DNA of 64,000 nucleotides from Sipunculus nudus (lineage: Eukaryota > Annelida > Sipuncula > Golfingiida > Sipunculidae). The DNA lies in NCBI GenBank assembly GCA_026874595.1, contig CM049313.1, forward strand, positions 64,608,159 through 64,672,158, written 5' to 3'. The notes under the pieces are model-generated. The model worked only from the letters and a program-made list of their open reading frames with translations. It was not told the DNA's origin and did not search any database. Made by a program: the position numbers and the translations under genes. This document shows positions 1,072 to 24,930 of this stretch, piece by piece (positions within the stretch are counted from its first letter, which is position 1; each line of letters opens with the position of its first letter).

Positions 1072-1840
1072 GCAACAAACAGACTTTGGTGAGAACATTG
1101 TCTATTTCGCAGAGATAATAAAATAAAAATTGTGTTGTTATATTATGTTGTTAATATACATTTATGTTCATTCAATGTAACATAATAAAGTTTATAATAT
1201 TCAATACAGATCATCTGTACTTCTGTTTATGAGTGCTGCACATGCACGCCATTGAGTATATTGTGTTAACTGGAACTGTTCCTCTCAGAATGTTTCTAAA
1301 GGTTTTATATTCAGCTGCCGCCCTTTTATATGACTATAAACAAGATTTGGATAAATATTGAATAAAGTAGAATGTTCAGTACATAATGTAGTTAATGCCA
1401 GTTCTAGGATGTAGGTTTAACAGAACATTTATCTCTTTGCAGCATTTAACCAAGCAAGTTAAGAGTTAAGACCGCAGTTGGTGCTACCATCAGTCAACAG
1501 ACGGCACTGCTATCGCTACCTGATGCGCCGCGTCTCTTTGATCGTGTAGACTGCATTCACGAATGGTACCACAGATCGTGCTACCAATTCTTGTGACCTT
1601 CATAATACAAAGACAGTCGATAACCATAACGTCATATAAACTATTATTCCGTGCAGTGTCATGAGAAGCTACACTTGCATAATTTTTGTTTCAGGATATG
1701 TATTGATAATATTAGTTATAAACCAGGAGAGAGAAAGAGAGAGACCGGCGTCACTCATGCATACACCCACATCACTTTTATAGTTTTAAACATTGTTACT
1801 TTTATGTTTAATAAAAAAATCAACAATATTACTTGTTATT
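1072..1840 (+). pseudogene. Copy 0: 3' end of the tandem gene family (terminal exon and 3'UTR)
   Basis: This segment is colinear with the 3' ends of copy A (13.85-14.68 kb) and copy B (24.08-24.93 kb). It has an intact acceptor (tctctttgcag, exon from 1443) and the conserved terminal coding block that reads PSVxRRxCYRYLMR. It ends at an AATAAA signal at 1810-1815. The frame that encodes the conserved block has a TAA between the acceptor and the block, and a 1-bp deletion relative to B changes the C-terminus, so this copy looks broken there. The rest of the gene would lie left of the window, or this may be a 3' fragment only. Confidence 0.6.
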
Positions 1841-1860
1841 TAATCAACTTGATTTGTTAG

Positions 1861-3190
1861 ATCAAGTGTGCACAAGAGATAGTGAGAAAGCGTCAAAAGC
1901 GTAAAAAAATAGACGAGAAAAGGAGAGAGAACGAGAAAAACGGTTAAGCGTGAGGGAGAAATTGGTGAAGAATGGGTCAGGGAGAGTAAATGAGAAGAAG
2001 GTGAGATATAATAAACTTGTAAGAATCAGACAGGATAGAGTAGAACGAGAGAAAAAATGGTAAAGAGAGAGATAGATAGAGAGAAAGGATGATTGAGAGA
2101 ATATGGTGAAACGAGCGAGAAAGAGAGAGAATAAATGAATAGAAGAATAAAACGAGATAATGAGACTGAATGAGAGAGAGGCAAAATGTGAATAAAATAA
2201 GAGATAAAAGAAAAAAATATGAGAGAATAAAAATTGTGAACGAGAAATAGGATTAAATGAGCGCGAAAATGAAAGAGAATTAGTATATAACGATTAGGAA
2301 ATAAAAGATTAAGCTTAGAAAGAGAGAGAGATAATGGGAATTGAATTAAAAAAATAAGAGAAGATGAGAATAAAATGACAGGATATTAGAGAATCAATGG
2401 GGATTGGAATAAATTGAGAGAGAATAAGAAAAAAATAAGAGAGAGACAGAATGAGAATAATCGAGAATGAGAATAAAATGAGAGAATAAGACAGAACGAA
2501 AGAGAGAGGATGGGAATAAAATGAGAGAGAACTTGAAAGAATTTAGATAGAGAAAAGGAAAGATAAGATAGAATGCATTATTAAATGAGAGAGAATAAGA
2601 ACGATTGACAGAGAATGAGAAGGAAGAAAAGGATTAAGAAAGAAAGGGAGAGGGGAGAGTGAATTATAATAAATTGAAAAAGATAAAAGACAGGATGAGA
2701 AAAGAGAAAAAAGTGAGAAAGAGAGAGAGAGAAAAGAAAGAGAATGGGTAAGAGAGAAGAGAGAGAATGAGAGACATTGCAAAAATGAGAGAATGAGAAA
2801 AAAAAAGCAAGAGTAAGAGAGTAAGCAATGTGATAATAACAGTGAACGAAAGAGAATGATAGAAAAAGAAAGAAAATGGAAAAGAGAGAGAGGTTAAGAT
2901 TGATTTAAAAAGAAAACAAGGAATGAGAGAAAAAGAGAATAAAACGATGAGAGAAATTACAGGATGAGATAGATTAAGAAAGAATAAGAAAAATGAGACA
3001 GGAAGGATTGTGGATAATGAGAGAGTGATAGAAAGAAAAAAGAATAAATAGGATGTTTGGGTTAAGGAGTGAAAAAAATAGAAAGTGAGAGAATAAGAGA
3101 GACAGACTGAGCATAACAGAGAAAAAGAAAGCAAGAGAAAATGAATAAGAGAAAAATATTGAAAAAGAAAAAAAGAAGAAACAGGGAGAC
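1861..3190. repeat. Polypurine GAGA/GAATGAGA tract downstream of copy 0
   Basis: About 1.3 kb is almost entirely A and G on the + strand (GAGAGA, AATGAGA, GAAAAAGA motifs with few pyrimidines). The opposite strand reads as Ser/Phe/Leu-rich ORFs, which are artefacts of CT-richness. It begins about 50 bp after the copy 0 AATAAA. Equivalent tracts follow copies A and B. Confidence 0.9.
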
Positions 3191-3199
3191 GCATGCGCT

Positions 3200-3534
3200 A
3201 ACAATTCCTTTCTGCTCAATAATAATCAAACTTGTTTTGACCGAACGTTGTTTACATATAGTTTAAACAGAATCACTGAAGCGACGCTCAAAATATAAAT
3301 ATACATTTTAATATTTCTGCTAAGATACTAAGAAATATCTGTAACCGGTGCTTATACATTTTTTTTATTACATTGTGCTTATAAATTTAATAATAACATC
3401 TTATATATAAGCTATCAAGAAATGTTTCCATATTCACGTAAAGCTAATTCATATTCATGACATAAAAATGAAGAGGTCATTCATGTGGTATTGTACAGTT
3501 TAATAATAACAACTATAATACAACTACTTCACTC
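3200..3534. other. Unassigned AT-rich spacer
   Basis: No gene, RNA or recognised repeat is seen between the polypurine tract and the poly-C array. Confidence 0.5.
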
Positions 3535-3778
3535 ACACCCCATCCCTACCGATCCGCGTTTTCCAGCTACAAATATTACTGAACACTCATTAGTTCACCC
3601 CCCTCGGCCCGCGTTTCATAAACACTCATGATTAACTACCCCCCCCCCCCCCCCCGCCCTTGTTATCCTGCCTAAAAATAATAATAAACATTGTTCAGTT
3701 CACCCCCAGTCCCCCACCGCCGCCCGCTTTGCCGCCTACAAATATTATTAAACATTTATGAATTCCCCCCACCCCGGC

Positions 3779-3973
3779 TGTAATATGGTGTGATTATACT
3801 AGTTAGTTTAACATGACCGTACGCTAGCGACATCTGGCTTGAGAGTCGGAACTATTATTCCACATGCGTTTGTGACGTATGCACCACGTGATCTGGTGTA
3901 TAGCAATGGCCGTGGAATAAAGTTTATGTGAACGTTTAACTGGCTTTCATTCCTTCCATCTGCTAAATCTACA
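3779..3973 (+). mobile_element. Solo LTR, 195 bp, with 5-bp target duplication
   Basis: The segment begins TGTAATATGG and ends ATCTACA (TG...CA). It contains an AATAAA signal near its right part (gtggaataaag). It is flanked by an exact CCGGC duplication at 3774-3778 and 3974-3978. Array sequence resumes at once on the right. No internal retroviral region is present, so one round of LTR-LTR recombination is likely. Orientation is inferred from the AATAAA. Confidence 0.85.
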
Positions 3974-4258
3974 CCGGCATTGTTTTCGCTGCCTACAAAT
4001 ATTATTAAACATTTATTGGTTCATCCTCCCCCCGCCCAACATCTAAAAATGTATAATACACTCATGATAAACTAACCCCCCCCTCGTTTACTCTGCCTTA
4101 TATACTCACCCCCCCCCCCCCCCACCCTTGTTTTCCTGCGTATAAATATTAATAAACATTGTTCGGTTCACCCCCAGTCCCTCATCGCCGCCCCGTTTCC
4201 CTGCCTACAAATATTATTAAACATTTATGAGTTCCCCCCATCCCGGCCTCTTTTTCCC

Positions 4259-4688
4259 GGGGTACGGACAAAAGCCCCCCCTCGTCGAAAGCCCCCCGGA
4301 CAAAAGCCCCCCCCCCGGTCAAAAGCCCCCCTACCTTAATGATAAAGAGGACAAAAGCCCCCCCCCCCCCAAAAAAAAATGTTTTTTTTTAAATAACTAT
4401 TAAAGGTAACTTTGAGTCCCTTGAAGTAATGAATCAATTTATATTAAATTTAAATTGGGAGCTAAAATTAGTTTTATTATATGTATCAATGATATTAATG
4501 AAATTGATCCTGTATAGTCATATATCATTATACTGTGTATAATATAATATATATTTTAAAATATTTTATATGACTACTATATATTAATCATGCATACTTA
4601 ACAGAATTATATGAGATAATACACATATTATACATATATTTACATAGTCTATATATATATTATAATAAGAATATAATATAATATATAC

Positions 4689-4746
<58 letters not shown>

Positions 4747-5238
4747 ATAGATGGATATATATATATTTCTATATTGGAGGGGGCTTTGGTCCTAGAGCTT
4801 TATAATGAAGCCATTCCTTCAATAATCATTCAGGTGAAACAGGTCCTGTGAAACTGTCCCATGGGAGTGGTTTCCTAATTAACAGATAACTGAGACCATT
4901 TATGTTGTTATTAGTATCAGTTTTAGTACCCTAAGTCTTGAATAACATTTTACTAGTGTGGGTCAGGTAATTATGTAAAGTATAGATTGATATTTCTATT
5001 GTTAACTATAAGATATATTGTAAGTATGAATTTTGAATGTAATTAAATAATTATATGAGATAACACACATTGTTTGTATTTACATTATATATTCATAGAT
5101 ATAGATATAAATATATTGGAGGGGGGCTTTTGTCCTCTTTATCATTAAGGTAGGGGGGCTTTTGACCGGGGGGCTTTTGTCCGGGGGGGCTTAATACCGG
5201 GGGGGCTTTTCACCGGGGGGGCTTTTGACCTACATCCC
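4259..5238. mobile_element. Non-autonomous DNA transposon, 980 bp, 8-bp target duplication
   Basis: The ends are inverted copies: GGGGTACGGACAAAAGCC at left, and GGCTTTTGACCTACATCCC at right. Each end carries iterated (GG)GGGGCTTTTGNCC units and a shared AAAGAGG/TTAAGGTAGG segment, giving about 110 bp of inverted repeat. Flanks are a perfect TTTTTCCC duplication (4251-4258 and 5239-5246). Removing the element restores a normal array unit. The AT-rich interior has a (TA)n(GA)n microsatellite at 4683-4743 and no transposase. An 8-bp duplication fits the hAT superfamily, but the TIR does not settle it. Confidence 0.85.
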
Positions 5239-5246
5239 TTTTTCCC

Positions 5247-6240
5247 TGCCTACACATATTATTATACATTTTTAAGTTCATCCCCAACCCCGCCTGCGAT
5301 TCCCTGCCTACAAATATTATTAAAATATCATGAGTTCATCCCCGCATTCCTGTCTACAAATATTATTTAACATTCATGAGTTCACCTCCACCCCCCCCCC
5401 CCCGCCCGCCCAACATCTAAAAATTTATAATATACACTCATGAAAAACTACCACCCCCCTCCCCTCCTCTCTTTATCCTGCCTAATAATTTAAATTAACC
5501 TTGATCAGTTCAATCCCCCCTACAAGTTTAATTAAAAACTCATGAGTTCACCCCCCCCCCGTTTTCCTGCTTACAAATATTATTAAACAATGATCAGCGT
5601 CCCCCCCACCCGGCTCTTGTTTTCCCTGCCTACAAATATTATTTAAAACTCATGAGTTCACCCCGCCCGCGCCTACAAATATTATTAAACATTTACGAGT
5701 TCACCTGCCCCCCCCCCCCCCCTGCCCATCATCTTAAAATTTATAATCCATTCATGATAAACCACCTACCCCCACCCATCCCTCATCTACCCTGCCTACA
5801 ATTTTTTTATAAACTTTGATCAGTTCAACCCCCCCTCCCCCGGGCCCTACAAGTTTAATTAAAAACTCATTAGTTCAACATCCACCCACTTTTCCCTGCT
5901 TACAAATATTATTAAACATTGATAAGTTCCCCCCCCCCCCAGCTCTTGTTTTCCCTGCCTATAAAAATATTATTAAAAACTCATGAGTTCACCCTCGCAC
6001 GCACATTCCTGCCTACAAATATTATTTAAAATATAAAACACTCATGATTTACCCTGTATAACCGGCCTCGTTTTTCCTGTCCAAAACAAATTATAAAACA
6101 CACATGAGTTTAACCCCCTCACTTTTTATTATAAAAATATGAAAAACAATCATTAAGTCATTCCCAGCAACCAAAACAACCCCCGCATTTTCCTGTCGCC
6201 GACAAAATTATGAAAATCCTGATGAGTTCGGCCTCAATAC
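5247..6240. repeat. Right part of the poly-C array
   Basis: The CCTACAAATATTATT core continues here with C-runs and occasional AACATCTAAAAATTTATAA variants. The array fades out at about 6240, where the segment homologous to copy B begins. Confidence 0.7.
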
Positions 6241-6695
6241 ACGGTCATGGGTCAACACCCAAACAGCCCCAAAATTATAAATTCCACATGCCCTGTTATA
6301 TATTGTCTGAATATCATTTTCCAATTATTGAGCAGAAGAGTGACAAAAAAAGTCTGCAGACATTTCTCTAACAGTCACATTCTGTGGTTAATTGTTCGTA
6401 TAGACATTCCTTGCTTTGGAAGTTTGTTAAAGGACATTTCTCAGACTTTCACTGCTCCAAAAATTAACTTATTATTAATGCTGGTATTAATAGGGTAAGT
6501 AAAACATTTAATATGAAATATATGTACACGAAAACTATTTAAATTGATAAAGTATAACAGAAAATAAGATTTCATTGTTGAAACTCTTTTTATCTGTAAA
6601 ATTTCAGTTCTGATTTGTGAACAAAGAGGGATAAGTGATACTTTTCTGATATGTGGATTATTGTTCAGGTCATCTGTTAAATGACCACTTTGTGT

Positions 6696-6833
6696 TGTTA
6701 CGAAGGCAAATAAATGATGGAAAATTCATGGGCCCATCCGGGAGTCGAACCCCGGTCGGTGACGCACAAATCCGGCGTACCAACCGCTTCGCTAGAAAAG
6801 CAGTCCGGTCCGCTTTTATGTCACCCCGTAACA
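6696..6833 (-). mobile_element. 138-bp LTR-like insertion carrying a tRNA-like Pol III promoter
   Basis: The insert begins TGTTACG and ends CGTAACA. It is flanked by GTGTT/ATGTT, and copy B has the empty site (gtgtgttaagaaac), so this is a real insertion. On the minus strand it has an A-box (TAGCGAAGCGG) and a perfect B-box (GGTTCGACTCC) within a T-arm that can form a 5-bp stem. The acceptor stem does not pair, so it is not a functional tRNA gene. It could be a tRNA-derived SINE or a miniature LTR element. Confidence 0.65.
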
Positions 6834-7051
6834 ATGTTAAGAAACTAAGACATCACCACTAGTCTTAATAACACTCCAGATGGGTCTGTACGTGAAAGAA
6901 CGGAAAGTCGTTATCACTCCAGGAATTACGGCTCGGGTCATCTGGTCCTGAAAGTGTGCCCCGGAACAATCTAATCATGAAAGAATAATCCCTGCACAAG
7001 CTGACCCTCAAACTGTCGCTCAGCCGCCTCATTTTGATTGTTGTTGCGGGC

Positions 7052-7398
7052 TAACGGGGCCTTGACAGCAGGGGCGGTGTTGCTCACCCCAGCTGGAGTT
7101 CGGGGGTCGGCTAGTCAATCTGACGAGTTGGAGGTTGTCGTTATCGAGCTCACGATGTCCACAGCTTGTTAAGTCATTGCGTGGTCACCTCAGCTGGCCG
7201 GGGACTGTTACCCCCACCTAGATAACGGGGGCGGGACAGTTAACCCCAGCTGTTGTTCGGGGGTCGGCTGGTTTATCAGACGAGGTGGAGGTTGTCTTTA
7301 ACGAGCTCACGATGTCCGCAGCTTGTTAAGTCTTTGCGTTGTCATCTTGGCTGATCTACACAGAGGGTATATATAAAGCCGAGGTACCCCTGTTGTAC
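7052..7398 (+). promoter_or_regulatory. Copy A promoter: two ~157-bp repeats and a TATA box
   Basis: Two direct repeats (about 7052-7216 and 7217-7360) each contain GGGGGTCGGCT, GTGGAGGTTGTCGTTA-like, GAGCTCACGATGTCC and AGCTTGTTAAGTC blocks. A TACGTGGTCA-like site follows in the less diverged units. TATATATAAA lies at 7368-7377, about 30 bp before the inferred start. Copy B has the same two repeats, TATA box and spacing, which supports function. The factor that binds is unknown. Confidence 0.75.
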
Positions 7399-7483
7399 AA
7401 TCAAATCCTGCAAGAGGAACTGACCGCTCGTATATACAGCGCCGTATTACACGTGACGATCTATAGCGACAGAGGTTTGTAAG
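7399..7483 (+). other. Copy A non-coding exon 1 (5'UTR)
   Basis: The exon is inferred from the TATA box about 30 bp upstream and from the donor TTGTAAG|GTAAGA at 7483/7484. It is conserved in copy B (TTGTATG|GTAAGT). There is no ATG in the copy A exon. The exact start is estimated. Confidence 0.65.
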
Positions 7484-7552
7484 GTAAGAATGTAATATAA
7501 ACTATTTTATTTTCTATGTGGACAACATGAGATGAACGTAACAAAAATGATA

Positions 7553-7983
7553 CTGTGGTTGCCTTTTTGTTCGCGAGGGTTTTAATTTCGCGATATTCGC
7601 GAATGGGAAATAATCGCGAAAATGACACCCTCGGGAATAATTGGCCAATTAAGTGTGTCCTTCTGATTAAGTGTAGCCAATCCTTGAATGGAAATAGGTT
7701 AGAACAGTGAGAAATCTTAATATAAGTTACATCCATGCAGGTATAGGGAAAACATTCCCTTAAATTTGAACTAAAGAACCTGTGCTGTGTGTACGGGCCC
7801 ATCCTTATATGAGGAGAATATCACAAGCTCATGAATTATTCTCAAATTATAATACACACAGCAATGGCTTTACCAAAGATTTGATATAGGTTCTGGTGAG
7901 ATCGCGAAAATGACACCCTCGCGAAACATTAAAAAATGGAGAAATCGCGAAATTTCAGCCTCGCGAATATGAAGCCAACCACA
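7553..7983. mobile_element. MITE with TCGCGA-rich terminal inverted repeats
   Basis: The left end (TGTGGTTGCC, then TTCGCGAGGG, TTTCGCGA and ATCGCGAAAATGACACCCTCG) is mirrored by the right end (TCGCGAAAATGACACCCTCGC ... GCCAACCACA), giving about 80-bp inverted repeats. It may have duplicated a TA. It lies in copy A intron 1 and is missing from copy B. A single end of the same family is at about 58926-58965. Confidence 0.8.
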
Positions 7984-8679
7984 TATTATATATTAAAGGA
8001 GTAAATGTATATAAACCGAATTCCTTCTACACAATAAGGTTAACCGTAACACAAGAGAGAACTAATAGAACTAATAAAGATTTTTTTACATGTTGCATTT
8101 TAGATTGTTGTTAGAAAAATGGGTGCACATGGATTTGATGTTTTCTGACCGTTTTTTAAACTACTTTATCCACTTTAAATAAGTTATATGTATGTATTAC
8201 ATATGCCTGGTGATATATAAAAAAAATTAATATAACATATTTATACCCTTTTCTCTAGATCAATATTATTTCCATAAAATAACATTTTCAATTATATGAT
8301 TTTGAGTGTATCAGTGTATCTATATGTTAATTGAAATAATATTTATTTGGCTCCAAAATAGGGATTAATTATATGATTATATTATACCATTAAAAAAATA
8401 TGAATGTATCAATGTATATGTACTGATACATTTTTTTATGGCTCGATATTATAACTATAAAAATATCTTTTAAAATATAATTTTGAATATATCAGTGTAC
8501 CCATATATTTTGACTTATAATTTTGACAGCTAGGTGTAGACAAAGGATACAACCTTTGTGAACAGAACTTTAGATAAAATTGATAAACTTTGTGAAATTG
8601 TAAATATAAGTATCCATGACCAACACCATCACATAATTTAGGAACTTTGGTGGAGGTTTTAGGAGAATGAGCTATAATA
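7984..8679. other. Copy A intron 1, AT-rich, no recognised element
   Basis: Parts align with copy B intron 1 (about 20080-20300). Degenerate AT-rich TATCAGTGTA motifs recur between 8300 and 8520. No gene is seen. Confidence 0.5.
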
Positions 8680-10189: not shown

Positions 10190-10374
10190 GTAAATATTTA
10201 GAGCAGTGATACAGTGGGGAATTAGGATAAAAACGCAAATAGAGGATCTCTGACTGTTTGATCATACGCCGTGAACTGAAAAAAAATCTTTGGGCTTATT
10301 TACATAATCACACTTGTGCCAACTATCTTGTGTACTGTTGTGTTATTTCAAATAACATTTCATCATCCTGAATC

Positions 10375-11092
10375 ATGTCGTGTCTCAAAAGAAAACTCGT
10401 TACTTCTGATCACAACAGAAAAAGTATGCTTCAACAGAGTATCAAAGCTTTCGACAGGATAAAGAAAAAGGACGCCAAAAAGGACACAGCAGAGCAGACG
10501 ATATGTACAGAGAAACCAGGAAAGAGGGTCAAAATTGTTCATTGCTATGATAATATTAAACCGTCGGGCCACTATGTGTCTAACCATAGTAAACTGAACT
10601 GTAAAACCCAAGTAGGGGCTTCGACAAGTGTCCGTAACAAATCTTGTGGCACGTGTGACGTCACAACCAAATTCAACCCAACGGGGAAAAGTCGATCTGT
10701 GGGTGCGATTACGAAAGGGGAAAATACTATGACGTCATCGAGCAGACGAAATAGCAAAGCCAAGGTTTCTTGTTGGAATGAAGCATACCTGAACACTACT
10801 TGTCTCAATAAACAAACCGCTAAAACCACAAGTGCTCGTGCATCACGCCACACTCCTCTCAATGGTAAATCCGGCAACAAGACTAAACTAAGTAAATGCG
10901 ATGAAAACAATCCCGGAATTCTCAAACGCAAATCTTTCCCTTGGATCTCAGCCAAGTCAGCTCCAGAAAAACTCTGCAATCTGAAAAAAGTTGCTACAGC
11001 GGCAGTCGACAGTGGCGCTCCTAGTGAGAATAATACTGATGGTCAGCCTCTCCTGATTGCAAAGGATTCACAGGACGTGAACATCAGAAAAG
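10375..11092 (+). CDS. Copy A exon 2: basic N-terminal region of unknown protein
   Basis: The family is not recognised. The exon starts at 10190 and the first ATG is at 10375; neither the 5'UTR part nor exon 1 contains an earlier ATG. It gives 239 codons plus one base (donor G|GTAATT, phase 1). The product is Lys/Ser/Thr/Asn-rich, with MSCLKRKLVTSDHNRK at the start, then KAFDRIKKK, KPGKRVKI, KVSCWNEAY, RASRHTPLN and GILKRKS. No signal peptide or membrane segment is visible. The many basic clusters suggest a nuclear protein (inference). Copy B is clearly related along the whole length, and differences are often conservative. The 5' end differs from copy B by one A in a homopolymer. Confidence 0.7.
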
Positions 11093-11394: not shown

Positions 11395-11457
11395 AGCCAC
11401 AGACCACAGGGCAAGATTCAACTCCCCAAGTTGCAGTGCCTTCTGCTATTGAAACTG
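11395..11457 (+). CDS. Copy A exon 3: first 21-residue cassette exon
   Basis: Acceptor CCCTGCAG is at 11394 and the donor is CTG|GTAAAT. It is 63 nt, phase 1 at both ends, so it can be skipped or duplicated without a frame change. It encodes E-PQTTGQDSTPQVAVPSAIET. Copy B intron sequence flanking this position aligns but lacks the exon. Its similarity to exons 4 and 5 (QT.xQDS....A.PS motif) shows that the three are duplicates. Confidence 0.7.
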
Positions 11458-11719
11458 GTAAATACGCCTTTTCAATAATGTTTAATCTGTATTCAACAGA
11501 AGCCTCTAGTTAAGTAATGAATAAAATAAATATAAACAAGTATCTACAAATGTTGAATGTTGTTGTGTACAGATCCGACTGATTGATAATACACATAAAT
11601 TAAATGTAAAAATATTTTCATGAAGTTTATTATTTATTTTATATAAATCTATAAGTCTATAGTCTAGGATACATCGTTATGGGGGGAATAAAACTGAATA
11701 TTTTCTTTTCTTGTAGCAG

Positions 11720-11782
11720 TGACAAAGACCACAGAACAAGATTCATTTTCCCTAATTGCTGCGCCCTCTGTTGTTGATGCTG
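11720..11782 (+). CDS. Copy A exon 4: second cassette exon, NAGNAG acceptor
   Basis: The acceptor is tagcag, so the exon can start at 11717 (66 nt) or 11720 (63 nt); both keep phase 1. The donor is GCTG|GTAATT. It encodes a TKTTEQDSFSLIAAPSVVDA segment, with one extra Ala if the first AG is used. Copy B keeps the same tandem acceptor (gcagcag). Confidence 0.7.
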
Positions 11783-12152: not shown

Positions 12153-12215
12153 AGGTACAGACAATAGGGCAAGATTCCATGACCCGATTGGCTGCGCCTT
12201 TGAGTGTTCATGCTG
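12153..12215 (+). CDS. Copy A exon 5: third cassette exon
   Basis: A T-rich tract and CAG at 12152 precede it and the donor is GCTG|GTAATT. It is 63 nt, phase 1-1, encoding EVQTIGQDSMTRLAAPLSVH plus Ala. Its residues and the intron bases just after the donor resemble exon 4, which supports a duplication that included flanking intron. Confidence 0.7.
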
Positions 12216-12619: not shown

Positions 12620-13602
12620 AGACTCAGACTTGTGCCGCCCCTGATGCCTCCTGTGATCCTCCCGTAGCGGATGATGCTCTGGTGATTCTGCTCAACAAAA
12701 AGATTGATGAACTTTGGCGAGTTGGCGATCCACTGTTAGCACCAGTCATCGCGGCATGTATGCTTGTCAGATATTACATTTATACAGACCAGTCCGCCAA
12801 GAACCAACCCACTATAGACACTTTTAAACCCGCCGCTGAGTCGTCCCCAGTAGAAGATGCTTCAGTTTCATCAGTTACACTGGCTGAATCTTCTGATCTA
12901 CCTTCACCTGATACTTCTCTGCCGTATTCCGTAGACCAGGAGACCACGTGCGACGCACAATCACCGGCTGCTGCTGCTAGAGATGAAGCCAGGCGGTCGC
13001 TAGGACGACAGCTGACGCATCACTGTCACGATGACGCCTTCTGTGACGACGAACTGTCAATAACACGCATGGAATGTTGTAGTCCACAGACAGTCGAAAC
13101 TCATGACACGCTGTCCAGTGTACAAACTGTGCATGATCCAATCATCTCATGTACTGACGCCTATCGTCAATCTCGTGAACTAGATTTGAGCGCCGTCGAT
13201 TTTGATGGACAGATGTGTAACGTTGATACGCAATCAAATCCCGCGAACTCCTCACTTGGTTTCAATTCTTCTGCCACTGCATTCAATCCTCAACAAGCAC
13301 CACAGCATCTGTCTGAGAGCAAGGTCGACGGTTTCGATTCAGAAGTATCAAACTCAAACCGAAAGTTTAGATCAGAACTTGATTTTGGGAATAACCAACA
13401 TGTGTTAGTCGCTGACAATGTATTAAATCTGAATAAAAGCGACAATGGGACCTGCAAGCAACTTCGATGTGGTGACGTCACAGTTCCAAAAAGAAAACCG
13501 CTAGGTCGTCCCAGAACCGTAATAACTTCATCCCAGCAACATCACCGTGCAGAGGTTGTCGCCACTGTCTCAAAAAGAAAACCTCTCCGCAGACCTGGAC
13601 AG
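12620..13602 (+). CDS. Copy A exon 6: acidic/Cys-rich region with two basic KRKPL motifs
   Basis: Acceptor ATACAG is at 12619. The exon supplies 327 codons after completing a split Glu codon and ends CAG|GTAAGC in phase 0. The head reads ETQTCAAPDASCDPP and resembles the cassettes. Next come a hydrophobic helix-like stretch (LWRVGDPLLAPVIAACMLVR), a Ser/Pro-rich linker and a His/Cys cluster (LTHHCHDDAFCDDE ... MECC). It ends with VPKRKPLGRPRT and VSKRKPLRRPGQ, which resemble AT-hook cores. If the last intron is not removed, the frame ends at TGA 13624-13626 after seven more codons. Copy B exon 6 is strongly similar, especially in the first 170 residues. Function is unknown; a DNA-associated nuclear role is inference. 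Confidence 0.75.
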
Positions 13603-14680
13603 GTAAGCATTAAGAAAAGAGTGTGAATTTTAAATTACTTTGCCTTTAGTCAGACACTCAGTGGAGAGGTTTCCTCCGAGAAGGTAAAATAATCCTACTG
13701 GGTCCCCCCTGTAAACTGATCTGCATAAAAATATGATATTATTTGTAAATTACATTAATGGTCCAAAGGCTTGATCAAAATGAGCCGGCAAACGGCAGCA
13801 GATGATTAATTCAGTTATAAACGATGCAAAATGAACAGAACATGAGTGAGAACATTACCTCCTGGGTAGAGGTAGAATTTGATCAATCATGGTCTCATAA
13901 TTCCCATGCCTTGTTACTAAATAACAAGTTCATTCCGACTGAACCATGAAAATGTTCAATATTTGACACCTGTATTTCTGTTCATGTGTGCTGCATATGC
14001 ACGTCATCGATTAGCTTATGTTAATTGGAATTTTTCTCTCATATATGTTTATAATGATGCGGTATATATTTTTATTCAGGCGCCGGCATTTTATATAGGT
14101 ATAGGTTATACTTCCATATATGGTCAACAAGCAACAACGCCAGCTTTGGTATGTTTTTAGTTTTGTATATATTAATCAGATTGTTTTATCTATTTACACT
14201 TTCCAAAGGAAGTTGAGGTATAGTGCAACCATCAGTGAGAAGACGGCGCTGCTTTCGCTACCTGATGCGCAGCATCTTTTTGGATCGTACAGACTGACCC
14301 AGTTCTTGGTGGATGTTTCGTGTGACATTCACACTACAAAGACTGCTGATGCTCATAACTTCATCTGTTACTGTTATTTTGAGCAATTTCATACATTTAC
14401 GCTCACCACCTTCCGTACTGGCACACCCTCTTCTTTTAACATTTGTTATAACACACCCACGGAGTTTCCTTGAGGATATCTTTAGATAATATTACATTAC
14501 AAGCGACCCGGGAGTAGAAAGATAGCTCATACAGATGTCTATGACATATGCTGATATCGTATCGAATATAAAAACACCGACCTGCAGTCGTTACACCGTT
14601 GTAGACTAGGGTCACTCATACAATGATGTTCTTGTTTTACATTTTGTTACTTATTTGTTGAATAAAAAATTGTATTATAA
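13603..14680 (+). pseudogene. Copy A decayed terminal exon and 3'UTR
   Basis: The terminal block at 14223-14297 still reads V-QPSVRRRRCFRYLMR and ends at TGA 14295-14297. However, the acceptor seen in copies 0 and B (tttgcag) has become tttacac, so the exon cannot be joined at the usual site. AATAAA is at 14661-14666. Transcripts may end within the last intron (stop at 13624-13626) or use another acceptor. An overlapping ORF at 14120-14473 is in a different frame and is a shadow. Confidence 0.55.
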
Positions 14681-14689
14681 TACTTGTTA

Positions 14690-16260
14690 TTTGAGATCAA
14701 GTGAGTCAGAGAGATTATGAGAAAGAATGGTAGTGAATAGGTGAATAAAGAAGTACGCGATAGAATGAGTACATGAATGAGGAGAGAGAGAGAGAGAAAG
14801 AATGACAGGCAGAATGAGAATGAGAAAGAATGAGTGTATGAAGAGGAAAAAATGAGGGACAGAATGAGAATGAGAGAGAATGACCGAATGAATTAGGAGA
14901 GAGAATGAGTATGAATGAGGAAAGAGAATGAGAGAGAGAATTAGTGTACGAATGAGGAGAGAGAATGAGTATGAATGCGGTGAAAGAATGTGAGAGAGAG
15001 AATGAGAGACAGAATGAACAGGAGAAGGAACGAGTGCATGTATGAGACAAAAAGAGAGACAGGGATTGGGAAAGAATGAGTGCATGAGTTAGAAAGGAGT
15101 GAGTGCGGGATTGAGAATATGAAAGAATGAGTGCATGAATAAAGAAAGAGTGAGAGCTTGAGAAGGAATGAGTGCATGATTGAGAAAAGAGTAAGAGGGA
15201 GAATGAGAAAAGATGAGTGCATAAATGAGGAAAGAGTGAGAGAGAGAATGAGAAAGAATGAATGCATGAATGAGAAAAGAGTGAGAGAGAGAATGAGAAT
15301 GAGTGCATGAATGAGAAAAAAGTGAGAGAGAGAATGAGAAAGAATAAGTGCATGAATGAGAAAAAGAGTGAGAGAGAGAATGAGAAAGAATGAGTGCATG
15401 AATGAGAAAAAAATGGGAGAGAGAATAAGAGAATGCATGAATGAGAAAAGAATGGGAGAGAATGAGAATGAGTTCATTAATGTGAAAAGAGAGAGATAGA
15501 ATAAAGGAAAGCATGAGAGGATAAATAAGAGAAGAGTGGGAGAGAGAAAATGAGAAAGAATATGTACATGGATAAGAAAAGAATGAGAGAGAGAATGATA
15601 AAGAAAGGATGACTGCATGAATAAGAAAAGAGTGAGTGATATAGAAATGAGAATGATTGAGTGCATTATTGAGAATAGAGTGAGAGAAAGAGAATGAAAA
15701 AGATTGCATGAATAAGAAAAGAGTGAGAGCGACACATAATGAGAAAGAATGAATGCATGAATGAGAAAAGAGAGAAAAAACGAGAATAAAATGAGAGAGA
15801 GAAAGAAATGAGAAAGTACGGGAATGAAAGAGAGGGATAGAAAAAGAAAGAACACGGGAGCATTAGTGAAAATGAAAGAGGGATGAGAGAGAGAATGTGT
15901 AAGAGAGACAGGATGAGAGAGAATGAGAATAAATGTGAGAGAATAAGAAGAATTAGAAAGAATAAGACCTCTTTTGGAGGGAGAGAGAATGAATTGAGAG
16001 AGAAAATGAGAGAAAAAGAGACAGAATGAGCAGGAATGAGAGAGGGAAAGATTAAAAGTATGAGAGAGAGACAAAAGTAGTGAGAGAAACTGAACAAAAC
16101 AAAAATAATATGAGAGAGAATGAATAACAAATAAAAAAGAAGATAAAAAGATAAAGAGATTATCTAAAAAAGATAATAAGGAAAGTTAAAGAAAGGAAGA
16201 AAAGAAAAAGATAGAAACTAATTAAGAGAGAGAAATAAGAAAAGGAGTATAAACTAAGAC
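14690..16260. repeat. Polypurine minisatellite downstream of copy A
   Basis: About 1.55 kb is nearly all purine on the + strand, built from ~44-bp units such as GAGAATGAGAAAGAATGAGT followed by GCATGAATGAGAAAAGAGTG. Long minus-strand ORFs rich in SHSFLI are low-complexity artefacts. Confidence 0.9.
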
Positions 16261-17057: not shown

Positions 17058-17204
17058 ACCCTGTCATCCATTTTTAATTAAATAGTCCACACATTACATC
17101 TACTAAAGATACAATTGACATGTGAGCTATAGCTATAGATACATGCATGGTGGAGTCCATCCTTCGTTCGCTGTGTCTGTAAATTCTTTTTCTAAACAGA
17201 ATAT

Positions 17205-17208
17205 ATGT

Positions 17209-17241
<33 letters not shown>

Positions 17242-17250
17242 ATGTGTGTG
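17205..17250. repeat. (TA)n(TG)n microsatellite
   Basis: Alternating TA then TG repeats. Confidence 0.9.
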
Positions 17251-17950: not shown

Positions 17951-18323
17951 TGAACGGGTAAAGTGTTTCTCCATCAATAAAACCAAGTATATTTGGTAAC
18001 CTTAAGCTTTAGAGATATATTTGTGTCAAGTGCAACATACCTAAGCCACGTAATAATAATGTTCATAATTTCTTACACTTAAAAGTATGAAATGTTCAAC
18101 TTAAAAGTGTGTTTTTGTTCACGCAGTTACGTTTTTACTACTCTGAATCAAGACTTATGGAAGCGGTGTAAAGCGCGGTAATGTGTCCCTCAGTGTCTTC
18201 AACACACTTTAAATGATAAAAGAAAAATGAAAACATTTTGTATAATGCAGGATAAGAGGTCCATGAATAACGGATATTTGCTTATAATAATGTTGTTTTG
18301 GGAGGAAGTTGTGGGTATCACAA
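17951..18323. other. Unassigned spacer
   Basis: Nothing recognised. Confidence 0.5.
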
Positions 18324-18795
18324 CAGGGACGGATCCAGGATTTAGGTAAAGGAGGGGTCCATGTCAGACAGACTAATGATAATACCTGATAAAAAGGTCC
18401 CCAGGTCTGGAAGAGGGGGTCCAGGCCGCAATAATTGGTCTGAACTCCTTTAAAAAGATGCGGTAGCTGAACGGGGGGGGGGGGGGGGGGGTCCGAACCC
18501 CCTGGACCCCTACACTGGTAACGCTTCTGCAGAAGACCCTGAATGGACGTTTCACATTTAATGTTTAAACGCATACTGAAACATTCAAAATGGCTCTAAA
18601 TATAGATATCACAATGACAAAATAGGCGATTTCTATCATTATATATTAACCATAAAATATAAATGTTTTAATTGACCATTGTGTTTAAGTTCAAATAGGA
18701 TCATTCGGTGGCATTAATCGTCAACATAAGCTCTTAAGGCGCGCACACGAATATTGTAACCGATCCATGGTTTAGTTCATGATAATTAATAATAA

Positions 18796-18851
<56 letters not shown>

Positions 18852-18927
18852 TATATCTTAATACCATGTATCAACAACTCACCAAGTATTAGCGCAACCT
18901 GTTCTCAAATTCCTGGATCCGTCACTG
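18324..18927. mobile_element. hAT-like non-autonomous element
   Basis: The left end CAGGGACGGATCCAGGATTT and right end AAATTCCTGGATCCGTCACTG are inverted copies with CAG/CTG termini, typical of hAT MITEs. Poly-G (about 18474-18490) and GGGGTCCGAACCCCCTGGAC lie inside, as does a (TA)n tract at 18800-18846. I do not see a matching 8-bp flanking duplication. Related GGATCC-type fragments are at about 28105, 47230 and 57776. Confidence 0.65.
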
Positions 18928-19582
18928 AACACGTTCAGGAGTTAAGAGCCCCTAAAAATTCACCTAATGCCCAGCTTACAAAATTATAAATTCCACTTGT
19001 TCTGTAATGTATCGTCTGAATATCATTTGCCATTTGTTGAGCAAAATGTGACAAACAAACTCTGTAGACATTTCCCTTACAGTCCCGTCCTGTGTTATTT
19101 TGTTCGTATTTATTCCTTGTTTTGGAAATTTGTTCAAGCATATTTTTCTGACTTTCTAATAAATATATGAACATGAAAACTAAAAATAAATTGATAGAGT
19201 ATAATAAAAAATAATATTTTTATATGTATAAACTATTTTTATCTGTACAATATCAGTTCTAATTTATCAACAAAGATTTAAAACTGATACTTTTCTTAAA
19301 GATTAAAAAGTCCTTGTGTTCAGTGATTAACTCCGACTGTTAGATTGACATGTGAACCGTTGTTCAGGTCAAAGGTTAATCGACCACTGTGTGTTAAGAA
19401 ACTACAAGTTGGCCACAAGTGTTAATTACACTCAAGATGGGCATGAAGGTCACTCCATGAATTACGGACCGGGTCATCTGATCCTCAAACGGTGCTCCGG
19501 AGCAATTTAGTCATGAAAGAATAATCCCGGGACTCAAACTGTCGCTCAACCACCTGATTTTGACAGATTTAGCAGGCGAGGC

Positions 19583-19930
19583 GTACTCACCCTCCTGGAT
19601 AACGGGGGCGGGGTAGCTCAATCAGCTGTGATACGGGGGTCGGCTGGTTTATATGACGAGGTGGAGGTTGTCGTTAATGAGCTCACGATGTCCGCAGCTT
19701 GTTAAGTCATTACGTGGTCACCTCGGCTAGCTGGGGACAGTTATCAAGGTTGGGTATAGTGGGGCGGGTAGGCTCACCCCATCTGGGGTACGGGGGTCGG
19801 CTCGTTTATCAGACTAGGTGGAGGTTGTCGTTAACGAGCTCACGATGTCCGCAGCTTGTTAAGTCATGACGTGGTCATCTCGACTGTTCTATACAGAGGG
19901 TATATATATAGGGCAGAGGTACCCCTTGTT
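19583..19930 (+). promoter_or_regulatory. Copy B promoter: two ~157-bp repeats and a TATA box
   Basis: Repeats at about 19583-19745 and 19746-19895 each have GGGGTCGGCT, GTGGAGGTTGTCGTTAA, GAGCTCACGATGTCCGCAGC and TTGTTAAGTCAT followed by ACGTGGTCA. TATATATATA is at 19901-19910. The repeats are less diverged than in copy A. Confidence 0.75.
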
Positions 19931-20017
19931 GTACAATTCAATCCTACATGAGGAACTGATTACTCGTTTACAGCACCGTTATACATGTGACCATCTATAG
20001 CGACAGAAGTTTGTATG
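19931..20017 (+). other. Copy B non-coding exon 1 (5'UTR)
   Basis: It ends at TTGTATG|GTAAGT. Unlike copy A it contains short upstream ATGs (one in ACATGAGG with an early stop, one in ACATGTGA). The start is estimated from the TATA box. Confidence 0.6.
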
Positions 20018-20364
20018 GTAAGTAAATGATATAAACTTATTTATTTTCTATGTGCACAACTTGAGATGAATGTAAAAAAATGATTTACATGAAACGAATA
20101 AAATTATATCATTTAAATTCCATTCTACATTATAAGGGTAAATGTAACAATATATAGAACTTCTTGAATTCAGGAGAATTTTCATCATGTTACATTTTAG
20201 AAAGCACATTCACAATTGAAATATTAAATATAATAAATATTACATATGCATGTTTTACATATGTCCAGTGATAAAAAATATGAATATAACACAAAGTAAA
20301 AATAAAAAACAAATGCACATCAATATAGTTATAATAAATCATTATTGTATATTAGTCAAAGGTG

Positions 20365-20428
20365 GGCTTTTGTTCAGATGTTTTTTGTCCGGATTTTTGT
20401 CCGGATGGGCTTTTGTCCTACACCCCTT
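20365..20428. mobile_element. Single terminal fragment of the GGCTTTTGTCC transposon family
   Basis: It carries iterated TTTTGTCCGGAT units and ends GGCTTTTGTCCTACACCCC, matching the right end of the 980-bp element at 4259-5238. No partner end is seen. It lies in copy B intron 1. Confidence 0.6.
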
Positions 20429-20842
20429 ACAGATCTGCCATGTGTCTAAGGCTTTTGAATGTCATGTTCTGGGTAACTAGCAGTAACAGTCTTCTGATTA
20501 AATGTGCACTGTAAACCATTGCCATGGCAGCCAGCTCTTCATTCATATATTAAACAAAAATCTTACTTCCTTTGTGTTTCTTTCACAGGTCAATATTTAC
20601 AGCAGTGATACAGTGGAGGATTTGAAAAAAAAAACACAGAGAGAGCTAGGATCTCTGACTGGTTGATCATACTCGGTGAACTGAAAAAAAGCTTCTGGAC
20701 CATTTACGTAATCACACCTGTGCGAACTTGTATCTAGCTTTGACACAGTGTACTCTTGTGTTTTACAATAACATTTCCTCACCCTGAATCATGTCGTGTC
20801 TCAAGAGGAAACTTGTTACTTCTGATCACAACAGAAAAAAGT

Positions 20843-21464
20843 ATGCTTCAACAGAGTATCAAAGCTTTCGGCAAGATAAAGAAAAAGGGCGCCACAAGTG
20901 ATGCAGCTGTGCTGACGACAGGTACTGAGAAACCAGGAAAGAGGGTCAAACTTGATAACGGTGGTGATAATGTTAAACAATCAGGTCATTGTGTGTCTAA
21001 CCATAGTAAACTGAACTGTAAAACACAGGTAGGGGCTTCGAAGACTGTAAGTAACAAATCAAGCAGCAAGTGTGACGTCACAACCAAAACCAGCTCAACG
21101 GGGAAGAGCCGATCGGTGCGTGCGATTACGGAAGGGGAAAATAAAAAATCCAAGGTTTCCTGTTGGAATGAAGCATACATTAACAGTCTTAACAAACAAA
21201 CTGCTAAAACCACAACTGCTCGTGCCTCACGCCACACTCCCCTTAATGTTAAATCCGGTGCCAAGATTAAACGAGATAAAGGCGATGGGAAGAGTCAGGG
21301 AATTCTCAAACGCAAATCCGTACGACTGATTTCAGCCGAGTCGGCTCCAGAAAAAATCTGCTCAGTGACATCGGGCGCCGACAGTGCCGCCCCTGGTGAA
21401 AATAATACTGATGGTCAGCCTCTCCTGATGTCAACGGATTCACAGGACGTGAACACCAGTAAAG
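20843..21464 (+). CDS. Copy B exon 2: basic N-terminal region, shifted start
   Basis: The ATG equivalent to copy A (20791) opens a frame that stops after 36 codons, because a run of six A replaces five in copy A. The frame that matches copy A reopens at ATG 20843 (MLQQSIKAFGKIKKK) and runs to a phase-1 donor (AAAG|GTAATT), 207 codons plus one base. It includes GKRVKLDN, which contains the KRVKLD core of the c-Myc-type nuclear signal; copy A has KRVKIV there. An ORF reaching further upstream to 20756 in this frame has no support from copy A. Either the shorter start is used, or copy B is a pseudogene, or the homopolymer is an assembly error. Confidence 0.6.
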
Positions 21465-21519
21465 GTAATTTTAGTTTATTTACTGAATGTAGACTAGTAT
21501 ATATAACCGACTGCAAGGT

Positions 21520-21556
21520 TTTATGTGTGTGTGTGTGTGTGGGGGGGGGGGGGGGA
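21520..21556. repeat. (TG)n and poly-G tract in copy B intron 2
   Basis: TGTGTG run followed by about 15 G. It is not present in copy A. Confidence 0.85.
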
Positions 21557-21944
21557 TCTGCACCTGATATTCATGTTTGATATTGACCTACTTCAGTGCC
21601 TTCCCGGGGAAGGTTCATGGCCTACTTTTCAATGCCATGACCCGAGAAGTGTCTTGCAAACGATGTGTAAATGCTGATCTCCAGTTTTCTCCGTAAAATG
21701 AGTCACAAAATGCAAAATGCTGGTACATGTGTACAGTTAACATCGTTTAGAAATCAGTGAAATTTTAAACTAGTTAATGTAAATTCTGTAATTTAGTTTA
21801 ACTGTGGATTGAATTTATTGAATACAATGTAAACAATAAACTCGGTCTGAGTTATAAAATCATCTATAAAACTATAAATGCATGGCCCACATTACATTGT
21901 TCTGGGGGAATAAAACTGACTAGTTTTCTTTTGTTTTGCAGCAG

Positions 21945-22007
21945 TGCCAAAGACCACAGAACAAGATCCGATCCCCCAGATTGCTGCTTCCTCTGTCGTT
22001 GATGCTG
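21945..22007 (+). CDS. Copy B first cassette exon (matches copy A exon 4)
   Basis: The acceptor is gcagcag, giving a start at 21942 (66 nt) or 21945 (63 nt). The donor is GCTG|GTAAAT, phase 1-1. It encodes PKTTEQDPIPQIAASSVVDA after the split codon. Only two cassettes exist in copy B. Confidence 0.7.
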
Positions 22008-22175
22008 GTAAATATGTCTTTTTATTCAGTTTATTTTCACATTAAATTTTTATTTTCGAAGCATAAAGCATTGATTTTATATGGTTGAGAAAGCAGCGGT
22101 TTTACCTACATCTAACTATAGGATATACTCTTAGTTTAATAAATGATATACAACTTGAAAGTGACTATGCCTCCA

Positions 22176-22179
<4 letters not shown>

Positions 22180-22217
<38 letters not shown>

Positions 22218-22240
22218 CCCCCCCCCCCTCTCTCTCTCTC
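22180..22240. repeat. (CT)n and poly-C microsatellite
   Basis: CTCTCT, C-run, CTCTCT; homologous to the copy A intron tract at 11940-12015. Confidence 0.85.
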
Positions 22241-22388
22241 AGACTACCAACTACAACAACACTACCATCTTTTATTTTAGATTAAAAAAATGGTCATGTG
22301 AGCCTATTATATCAGTATTAAATACGTCATCGCTCTGCCAGTCGCTTAAATGTGTTAATAAAACTTTAGATTTTCTCATTTTTTTCAG

Positions 22389-22451
22389 AGGTACAGACAA
22401 TAGAGCAAGATTCCATGACCCAGTTGGCTGCGCCCTTGAGTGTTCATGCTG
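22389..22451 (+). CDS. Copy B second cassette exon (matches copy A exon 5)
   Basis: Acceptor TTTTTCAG, donor GCTG|GTAATT, 63 nt, phase 1-1. It encodes EVQTIEQDSMTQLAAPLSVH plus Ala, two substitutions from copy A. Confidence 0.7.
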
Positions 22452-22834
22452 GTAATTTCGCCTTTTTTATTCAACTTTTGTATTGTCTTATTAATATTCC
22501 GAGCGTAACGAACTGACATTTGAATATCTATTGACAGCCCCTATAATAACAACTAAATATAGAATCTATATATCATTTTATCAGATTTCCTTCTCTCTCT
22601 CTCTCTCTCTCTCTCCCTCTCTCTCCCTCTGTTTGTCTATCTCTCTGTTTCTGTCTCCCTCTCTGCGGGAACACATAAACGCATATCGGAAAAAAAACGC
22701 TTGTTAAATTAGCCACATCTGGATGATTGTATTTCCATGTCTTATATTTTGGACAATAAAAACCTTTCATATCAAAATATGAAAATACGTCCTCACATTG
22801 ATAATCGATTGTTTGTTTTTATTATTATTTACAG

Positions 22835-23835
22835 AGACTCAGACTTGTGCCGCCCCTGATGCCTCCTGTGACCCTCCCGAAGCTGATGAAGCTCTGGCAA
22901 TTCTGCTCAACAAAAAGCTAGATAAACTTTGGCGAGTTGGCGATCCACTGTTAGCACCAGTCATCGCGGCGTGTATGCTTGTCAGATGTTACTTTACTAC
23001 GGACCAGTCCGCGAAGAACCGCACCACTCTAGAGACTTTTAAACCCGCCGATGAACCGTCCCCAGTAAAAGATGCTTCAGTTTCATCAGTTACACCGGCT
23101 GAATCTTCTGATCTACCATCATCTGTTACTTCTCTGCCGTATTCCGTAGACCAGGAGACCACGTGCGCCGCGCCATCACCGGCTGCTGCAGCTAGAGATG
23201 AAGCCAGGTGGTCGCTAGGTCGACAACTGACGCATCACTGTCACGATGACGCCTCGTGTGACGACGAACTGTCAATCACACGCATGGAATGTTGTAGTCC
23301 ACAGTCAGTCGATGCCCATTATACGTTGTCCAGTGTGCAAACTGTGAAAGATAAACTTATCTCATGTTCTGACGTCCATCGTCAATCTGATGAACTTTCG
23401 TTGAGCTCCGACGACTTTGTTGGACAGATGTGCAGAGTTGATACGCAATCAAATCCCGTGATCTCCTCTCTTGGTTTCGATCTTTCTATCCCCGCATTCG
23501 AAACGTGTAGTCCCGATCAAGCACCAAAACAGCAGTGTGAGGGCCAGCGTGCATCAGAACCCGATTATGAGAATAAAAAACCTGTGGCAGACATCTGTCA
23601 GCAAAGGAACGTATTAAACCTGAATGGAAGAGACGCCCCGATCTGCGATTCTTTCAAGCAATTTCCATGTGGTGACGTCAGAGTACCAAAACGAAAACCG
23701 CTACGTCGTCCCAGAGCCGCGATGACGTCATCCAAGCAACATCACCATGTCAAAGCTGATGCCACTGTCTCAAAAAGAAAACCCCTTCGGAGACCCAGAG
23801 CCTTCTTCCCAACAATGTCAGCGTCCGGATATTGA
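22835..23835 (+). CDS. Copy B large exon, ends at an in-frame TGA
   Basis: Acceptor TTACAG is at 22834. The head ETQTCAAPDASCDPPEADEA, the helix-like LWRVGDPLLAPVIAACMLVR, the LTHHCHDDASCDDE/MECC cluster and two basic motifs (VPKRKPLRRPRAAM, VSKRKPLRRPRAFF) are all conserved with copy A. The frame ends at TGA 23833-23835, but a good donor (CAGCAG|GTAAGC) follows at 23868/23869 in phase 0. Relative to copy A there are 66 extra bases before the donor. The stop may be the true end of this copy, or a disabling change upstream of the terminal exon. Confidence 0.7.
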
Positions 23836-24326
23836 TGTCGCGGTCGCCCAGAGAATTCCGCCCAGCAGGTAAGCATGGAAAAAAAGAGTAGGAATTTTTA
23901 ACTATTTATCTTTCACTGGTAAAACACTCGTTAGAGAGGTCACTCTTGTCAAGGCGAAATAATCATACAAGTCTGCACCAAAATATAATTGTGTTAGTGA
24001 TGTGCATCCGTCTTTCAAAGCCTTGGTCAATATCAGGCGACAAACGGCAGGAGATGTTGTAAACAAGACAAAATAAACAAACAGACCTTGGTGAGAACAT
24101 AACCTCCTGGGTAGAGGTAATAATTGATACATTTTGGCGTCGTAATTTATATGCCTTGTTATTGAATGTGTTCATTCTCTGTAACCTGGTAATGTTTAAT
24201 GATATTCAATATAAATCATCTGTACTTCTGTTCATGAGTTCTGCACATACTTGCCGTTAATTATTGCGCTCACTGGGATTGTTCCTCTCAGAAATGTTTC
24301 TAATGATGCGGTCTATATATATTTAG

Positions 24327-24356
24327 GTGCCGCCTTTGTATTGTCCCATGATAAAG
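24327..24356 (+). other. Possible 30-nt micro-exon in copy B
   Basis: TATTTAG precedes it and AAAG|GTAATA follows. It has ten open codons (VPPLYCPMIK), phase 0. Copies 0 and A retain a similar CNGCCGNC start after an AG but lack an equivalent donor. Very tentative. Confidence 0.2.
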
Positions 24357-24457
24357 GTAATAAAAATAAACTAGAAGTGTTAATACGAAGGATTTAATGC
24401 CTGCTATTGGATGTTTTTAATTTTGCAGATTAAACTGATCATTTTATCTCTTTGCAG

Positions 24458-24720
24458 CCATTTCACCATGTTGAGTCCGAAGTAGTGCTACCATCAGTCA
24501 GCAGACGGCGCTGCTATCGCTACCTGGTGCGCCTCGTCTCAATGGATCGTGAAGACTGTATTCACGAATGATACCACAGATCGTGCTACAAAGATAATCG
24601 ATGACCGTAACATCATATTCACTATTATTGTCATGAGTTGCTACACTTACATACATTACACCAACTGAAATACGCATCATGTATATTTGAGATATGAGTG
24701 GATAATATTTATTTACAATC

Positions 24721-24761
<41 letters not shown>

Positions 24762-24930
24762 CTCATACAAGTCTACATGACATATACTGATATTTGTTCG
24801 AATATGAAAGTGCCGACCAGCAGTCGTCATTCTGTTGCAGACGAGGGTTGGTCATACATACTATACACGCACATCACTGTTACTGTTTACACATTGTTAC
24901 TCTATTGTCAAATAAAAAAGACTTTGGTAC
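24458..24930 (+). other. Copy B terminal exon and 3'UTR
   Basis: The acceptor TCTCTTTGCAG is at 24457. The exon opens in phase 0 with PFHHVESEVVLPSVSRRRCY, then RYLVRLV, and closes at TGA 24569-24571. That phase fits the copy A and copy B exon 6 donor. AATAAA is at 24911-24916 with GT-rich sequence after it. In copy B the upstream TGA at 23833 would put this exon in the 3'UTR unless splicing bypasses it. Confidence 0.5.
24720..24760. repeat. (GA)n microsatellite in 3'UTR
   Basis: GAGAGA run inside the predicted 3'UTR. Copy 0 has a shorter GAGAGA at the same place. Confidence 0.85.

Follow-up and report, generated by a model that had tools for sequence, protein, structure and literature searches.

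A clustered, fast-evolving gene family with a family-restricted upstream repeat in Sipunculus nudus

Introduction

The AT-hook, the short motif of HMGA-type proteins, has the core RGRP. Other described systems bear on genes that multiply and change quickly or that carry short repeated motifs. The ZAD-ZNF genes of Drosophila are reported to be an amplified, fast-evolving nuclear gene family (PMC7655104), binding of the dynein light chain LC8 to ASCIZ is described as multivalent (PMC5963919), and the preference of LC8 is given as [D/S]K-x-[TVI]Q[TV][DE], with K at -3 and D/E at +2 (PMC3078936). Here we describe a gene family in Sipunculus nudus, detected in a 64,000-nucleotide stretch of its genome (G000:C8:64608159-64672158, hereafter the window; genome 1.43 Gb, 153 contigs). 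It is of an already known kind, an amplified, fast-evolving gene family, and this particular family is not named in the titles or abstract openings of the literature searched. Our analysis supports the proposal first made from the letters of the window alone (the original prediction), that the locus holds an unrecognised, fast-evolving gene family.

Results

Gene copies in the window

As proposed, the window contains two near-complete copies, A (exon 2 at 10190) and B (exon 2 at 20589), and the 3' end of a third, Z (1.07-1.99 kb). When the window was compared with itself by BLAST, A and B matched across the upstream repeats and exon 1 (76.9% over 731 columns), the exon 2 region (78.3% over 1159 columns) and the mini-exons with most of exon 6 (80.7% over 2013 columns), and Z matched B at 69.5% over 640 columns. 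Direct reading of the exons gave the same layout in A and B. Downstream of the tandem upstream repeats and the TATA box, exon 1 is non-coding and exon 2 supplies the start codon; there follow mini-exons of 21-22 codons each, three in A and two found in B (where mini-exon 3 was not found), then exon 6, which is long, and a short exon 7. Between the donor of exon 2 and the acceptor of exon 6, both included, every junction is in phase 1, in agreement with the predicted conservation of splice phases. Decay does differ between the copies: in B one extra A in an A-run 3' of the first ATG shifts the frame, a second ATG being in frame (Table 1), and the last acceptor of A no longer has the AG that the related copies L012 and L013 retain. 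In L016, L012, L014 and the C2 copy, continuing the reading by eye into exon 7 gives a short additional tail which begins PFP, PVP or AFP. Promoter repeats, TATA box, splice sites and AATAAA signals had been thought common to all three copies; this holds for A (AATAAA at 14661 and 14744) and B, but Z, whose AATAAA lies at 1810, has no upstream repeats, and the 2258 bases before the window yielded only its three basic C-terminal repeats.

A family clustered on one contig

Searching the genome gave 20 matches with exon 6 of A and 12 with exon 2. Nine loci, A, B and L011-L017, lie on contig C8 at ~64.473-64.634 Mb, where two 3' fragments were also found (Z and one at 64587816), and about ten family copies fall within one 160-kb stretch of the chromosome. 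Two copies lie elsewhere: on C1, L010 matched in exon 6, with exon 2 not detected, and contains a stop and frame shifts, and on C2, L009 is a divergent gene whose exon-6 reading frame runs for 601 codons, including intron read-through. Chance is excluded by the nine C8 loci, of which A and B are two, and by the additional matches on C1 and C2. Exons 2 and 6 are both open in A, L012, L013, L016 and the C2 copy; L011 and L014 have a broken exon 2, L015 retains a 28-residue fragment of it, exon 6 is broken in L017, and B is shifted at the first ATG only. In an exon-6 tree of nine copies, with the broken L010 and L017 left out, A grouped with L013 and L012 (100/99), B with L014 (98/97) and L011 with L016 (100/100), and the C2 copy formed a long branch. 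The family had been called tandem, and the C8 copies are indeed clustered, but three of the nine (L014-L016) are inverted, B groups with one of these and the nearest relatives of A are L012 and L013.

Two observations concern the outlying copies. Directly 5' of the real start of exon 6 in the C2 gene (L009 5858-5890) lies a possible decayed duplicate of that start (AG plus ACACAAACCTGT). At L010 4096-4632, 5' of the broken C1 copy, an open frame looks reverse-transcriptase-like by eye; in Pfam it gave only a sub-cut-off hit to baeRF_family7 (E 0.0012).

An upstream repeat restricted to the C8 copies

A 273-bp probe holding the repeat, TATA box and exon 1 returned 20 genome matches, all at the nine C8 loci and each preceding a family copy; none were returned on C1, C2 or elsewhere by this search, which leaves very common words aside and scores the best candidates only. 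All nine C8 copies retain the upstream box. Between A and L016, whose synonymous divergence is ~1.1, identity is 94/113 from the box to the TATA box vs. 50/87 in exon 1. Its position and the adjoining TATA box make the repeat the likely promoter of the family. Rfam found nothing in the upstream region of A, and a tRNA scan in bacterial setting gave no hit.

Purifying selection on the open frames

Purifying selection acts on the open frames of the family. The ratio of non-synonymous to synonymous divergence (dN/dS, Nei-Gojobori) between A and B was 0.55 over 562 codons (0.50 in exon 2, 0.62 in exon 6), and among all aligned copies it lay at 0.34-0.70 in 29 of 36 exon-6 pairs and 18 of 21 exon-2 pairs. 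Bootstrap upper bounds, read as printed, were below 1 in 27 of the 36 exon-6 pairs, seven of the nine exceptions involving the damaged L015 and two lying inside the trio A/L012/L013, and in 17 of the 21 exon-2 pairs, all but B-L017 and the three pairs within the trio; the pairs are non-independent, and those with the C2 copy are near saturation (dS 0.99-2.14). For the closely related L011 and L016 the exon-6 ratio was 0.59, with an upper bound of 0.75 at a dS of 0.28. In the nucleotide alignment of A and B, 8 of 10 coding indels are multiples of three (one of the eight, of 66 bases, at the end of exon 6) vs. 7 of 28 non-coding indels; in coding sequence, only the additional A of B and a gap of 34 bases at mini-exon 3 depart from this. 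Identity between A and B is 57-58% in intron 2 and the mini-exon 3 region. With dN/dS below 1 in most comparisons, the proposal of a family of rapidly changing genes is supported.

A predicted disordered protein with recurring basic motifs

The protein had been said to show no recognised domain, and none emerged from protein database, Pfam or PDB sequence searches. In the protein database, queries with the joined A protein and with profiles of exon 6 and exon 2 found nothing at E <= 10, with 7997, 7996 and 3181 candidates scored, the first two sets limited to those sharing most words, and with no positive control that the database holds related animals. Nothing in A or B rose above the curated Pfam cut-offs (Rpr2 15.2 bits vs. 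29.3, DUF5529 17.6 vs. 25); the best E-values over the members were 0.0034 for DUF5529 (2/9) and 0.018 for Rpr2 (3/7). The best E-value was 0.38 in the PDB sequence searches and 4.6 for a PDB fold in a Foldseek search with the hairpin described below.

AlphaFold predicts disorder around one 44-residue helical hairpin. For exon 6 of A and B, the predicted local distance difference test score (pLDDT) was below 50 in 285 of 334 residues, and the hairpin (14-34/37-61), folded alone, had block means of 78-80, down to 67 at its end. The ends are basic: exon 2 of A holds 47 K+R vs. 18 D+E and its last 66 residues 17 vs. 3. Recurring in the aligned copies are a basic N-terminus that includes an IKK stretch rich in K, a [KR]VSCWN motif, the hairpin stretch and terminal KRKPLRRPR-like repeats, the last numbering one in C2, two in A, B and L016, and three upstream of Z. 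Exon 2 further carries KRVKLD in B, KRLRLD in L016, KKARLE in C2 and a weaker KRVKIV in A. A pattern search found phase-1 mini-exon-like segments with a terminal PS-V-V-D-A type motif in most copies and none in L015 or L010; mini-exon 3 of L013 was missed by the pattern and shown by tblastn. Scored by eye, the PxDLS motif of CtBP-binding repressors is not family-wide (PIDLS and PVDLS occur in C2 alone of nine aligned copies), and PP1 docking was rejected, as GILK is present in A and B and not in C2 or L016, with no RVxF partner seen.

The 3'-exon element and other features of the window

The word AGACGGCGCTNCNNTCGNTA occurs 27 times in the genome at up to one mismatch, compared with five for a reversed control. 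The cluster holds 9 of the 27 matches and 5 of the 6 exact ones; eight of these nine lie in last exons and one (64473250) just beyond the stretch fetched for L015, and L010 and L017 carry the element with two mismatches. Seven of the other 18 matches form one C2 array (G000:C2:45148079-45210956) of AGAGGGCGCTGCT[GA]TCGTTA copies, all on the minus strand and 7.7-15.5 kb apart, tied to the 3' element, as far as seen, by this short word only. Covariation gave little support to an RNA hairpin in the element (nine pairs, one with a both-side change kept, covariation term -0.22), and the best Rfam E-value on exon 7 of B was 0.41, at about half the gathering score. With its left flank (in L014, CACCAGACGGCGCTGC), the element at window positions 1499-1518, 14241-14260 and 24503-24522 resembles the vertebrate CTCF core with one mismatch, which we take as a lead only.

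Table 1 Features of copies A and B and adjoining repeats (window coordinates).
Feature	Position	Strand	Remarks
Copy A, two tandem upstream repeat units, ~157-bp spacing, likely promoter	7060..7353	+	32-nt box at 7126 and 7283; in genome search at nine family loci only
Copy A, TATA box	7368..7375	+	TATATAT kept in 9/9 aligned copies
Copy A, exon 1, non-coding	7398..7483	+	start inferred from TATA; donor GT at 7484
Copy A, exon 2, ATG 10375, 239 codons, phase-1 donor	10190..11092	+	
Copy A, mini-exon 3, 21 aa, phase 1-1	11395..11457	+	
Copy A, mini-exon 4, 22 aa, phase 1-1	11717..11782	+	
Copy A, mini-exon 5, 21 aa, phase 1-1	12153..12215	+	
Copy A, exon 6	12620..13602	+	frame continues past donor, stop ending at 13626
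Copy A, predicted helical hairpin, residues 18-61 of exon-6 peptide	12673..12804	+	AlphaFold
Copy A, two basic repeats, KRKPLGRPR and KRKPLRRPG	13489..13602	+	
Copy A, conserved 3'-exon element AGACGGCGCTGCTTTCGCTA	14241..14260	+	
GA-rich 45-bp minisatellite, downstream of copy A	14703..16074	+	
Copy B, two upstream repeat units, likely promoter	19605..19885	+	
Copy B, TATA box	19901..19910	+	
Copy B, exon 2	20589..21464	+	first ATG 20791 out of frame; in-frame ATG 20843
Copy B, mini-exon 4	21942..22007	+	
Copy B, mini-exon 5	22389..22451	+	
Copy B, exon 6, stop 23833-23835, donor at exon end	22835..23868	+	
Copy B, exon 7 to inferred 3' end	24458..24930	+	AATAAA 24911; conserved element 24503-24522
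GA-rich 45-bp minisatellite, downstream of copy B	25034..26680	+	

Weaker GA-rich repeats follow Z at window 2047-2803, and related sequence follows L012, L013, L014 and L017. Elsewhere in the window are a ~20-copy 29-bp minisatellite (49674-50256, unit TTCCCACCAGACATAGGTGAACACATTAC), degenerate tandem repeats of ~157 and 312 bp (51722-53571) and a 138-codon open frame (40879-41295), which resembles a tyrosine-recombinase fragment by eye and for which Pfam gave nothing at E <= 0.1.

Discussion

We hold with moderate confidence that purifying selection acts on these loci, which form a fast-evolving and for the most part clustered gene family with a private upstream repeat, and that their protein, predicted to be mostly disordered, would probably serve as a nuclear, DNA- or chromatin-associated adaptor. 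The KRVKLD-type motif of exon 2, which we take to be a Myc-like localisation motif, could direct nuclear import, one to three KRKPLRRPR-like repeats near the C-terminus could contact DNA or chromatin, and the hairpin could serve to pair two copies or to bind a partner. The protein could be tuned by its phase-1 mini-exons of 21-25 residues, whose skipping or inclusion would leave the frame intact, and the common upstream repeat would turn on the C8 copies together.

Several results weigh against this picture. The AlphaFold input consisted of two sequences only and exon 6 reached a predicted template modelling score of 0.19; exon 6 of A is acidic as a whole (34 K+R vs. 45 D+E), and short motifs such as the Myc-like one arise by chance. 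Neither the upstream repeat, in the genome search, nor the 3' element, at three mismatches, was found in the C2 copy. In the recent trio A/L012/L013, exon 2 is without clear constraint (ratios 1.20, 1.97 and 1.39, with wide intervals). Identity between A and B in intron 5 (92%) exceeds that in exon 6 (84.5%), therefore part of their similarity reflects conversion or intron constraint. Likewise, the 52-nt upstream box is closer between A and L011 (48/50) than between L011 and L016 (41/50), although the latter are the closer relatives, therefore exchange among the repeats likely contributes beside constraint.

The trio ratios above 1 would also suit a once-functional family which is now mainly decaying, its constraint predating duplication, as would the broken or partial state of L010, L011, L014, L015, L017 and Z, the shifted frame of B and the lost acceptor of A. 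We regard this as unlikely, given five copies with both large exons open, the low L011-L016 ratio at small divergence and the box retained in every C8 copy. Distinctly more doubtful is a scaffold clamped by LC8 at repeated xQT motifs, with the nuclear motifs incidental. Six [TVIPE]QT motifs occur in A vs. 0.78 expected in shuffles (P 0.0002, for a pattern picked after the sequence was seen), the stricter [TVI]QT occurs three times vs. 0.51 (P 0.015), two of the six lie in mini-exons, and multivalent binding is reported for ASCIZ (PMC5963919). Scored by eye, however, K(-3) and D/E(+2) never come together in any motif of A or C2, which removes an LC8 client by strict motif, and a looser pattern numbers four in C2, two in L016 and one in L011 (exon 6 only) in the scanned exons.

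A BH3-only death protein of Bim/Bmf type, with TQT followed by a BH3-like helix (DELWRVGDPLL in A), seems to us very improbable. The order TQT then LxxxGD is found in A, B, L012 and L013, but GE replaces GD in L011, L014, L016 and C2, K occupies the first hydrophobic position, the D is followed by a proline and the helix of the two-sequence model breaks at residues 35-36; the core is no more frequent than by chance (2 vs. 0.71 expected, P 0.155) and the fuller pattern is absent. With LxxxGD not kept across members and no unbroken amphipathic helix through the motif, this candidate was rejected. Equally hard to credit is a reading of the copies as pieces of a mobile element or an endogenous virus. 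Their number, the adjoining minisatellites, the reverse-transcriptase-like stretch beside the C1 copy, not so named by Pfam, and a weak Pfam match to the tail of a herpesvirus glycoprotein (E 0.031, in one exon-6 member out of nine) could be cited for it, but the copies read have introns, nearly all sit in one cluster and the upstream repeat was found at family loci only. In Pfam scans of exons 2 and 6 no reverse transcriptase appeared, nor any transposase or integrase, and no search was made for terminal repeats or target-site duplications. We therefore rejected a transposon or virus, and no match of the kind that would have undone the original prediction came to light; with nine C8 loci, the C1 and C2 copies and dN/dS mostly below 1, the family stands as a candidate undescribed one.

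A more elaborate version of the adaptor reading, which we offer as rather improbable speculation, is an undescribed nuclear, chromatin-contacting, disordered family in an ampliconic cluster with one private promoter repeat, in which fast change of the protein, of the number of cassette mini-exons and of the number of basic repeats would be as in a germline arms race (meiotic drive, mobile-element silencing); the germline role is a guess by analogy.

HMGA-type proteins share with the family a short basic motif that contains proline, is repeated and suits DNA contact, but the core here is PLRRPR or PLGRPR (as in KRKPLRRPR and KPLGRPR) and RGRP is absent, and an AT-hook was thus rejected. Like ASCIZ/ATMIN, the family has several xQT motifs in a predicted disordered stretch; unlike it, it has no zinc finger by Pfam and its xQT motifs lack the published flanks. 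The resemblance to Bim and Bmf is the TQT upstream of an LxxxGD helix in A-like copies, and the family departs from them in the unconserved GD of distant copies, the proline after D and the basic ends. What we have is a defined family: five of its copies have exons 2 and 6 open, a divergent member lies on a different contig and the upstream repeat was found at family loci only, so that expression and function are directly testable. Should it prove nuclear and be expressed in the germline, the family would offer a compact case in animals of a chromatin gene cluster that is amplified, co-regulated and fast-evolving. In amplification and fast evolution it is like the ZAD-ZNF genes, from which it differs in a predicted mostly disordered protein with no zinc finger or other recognised domain.

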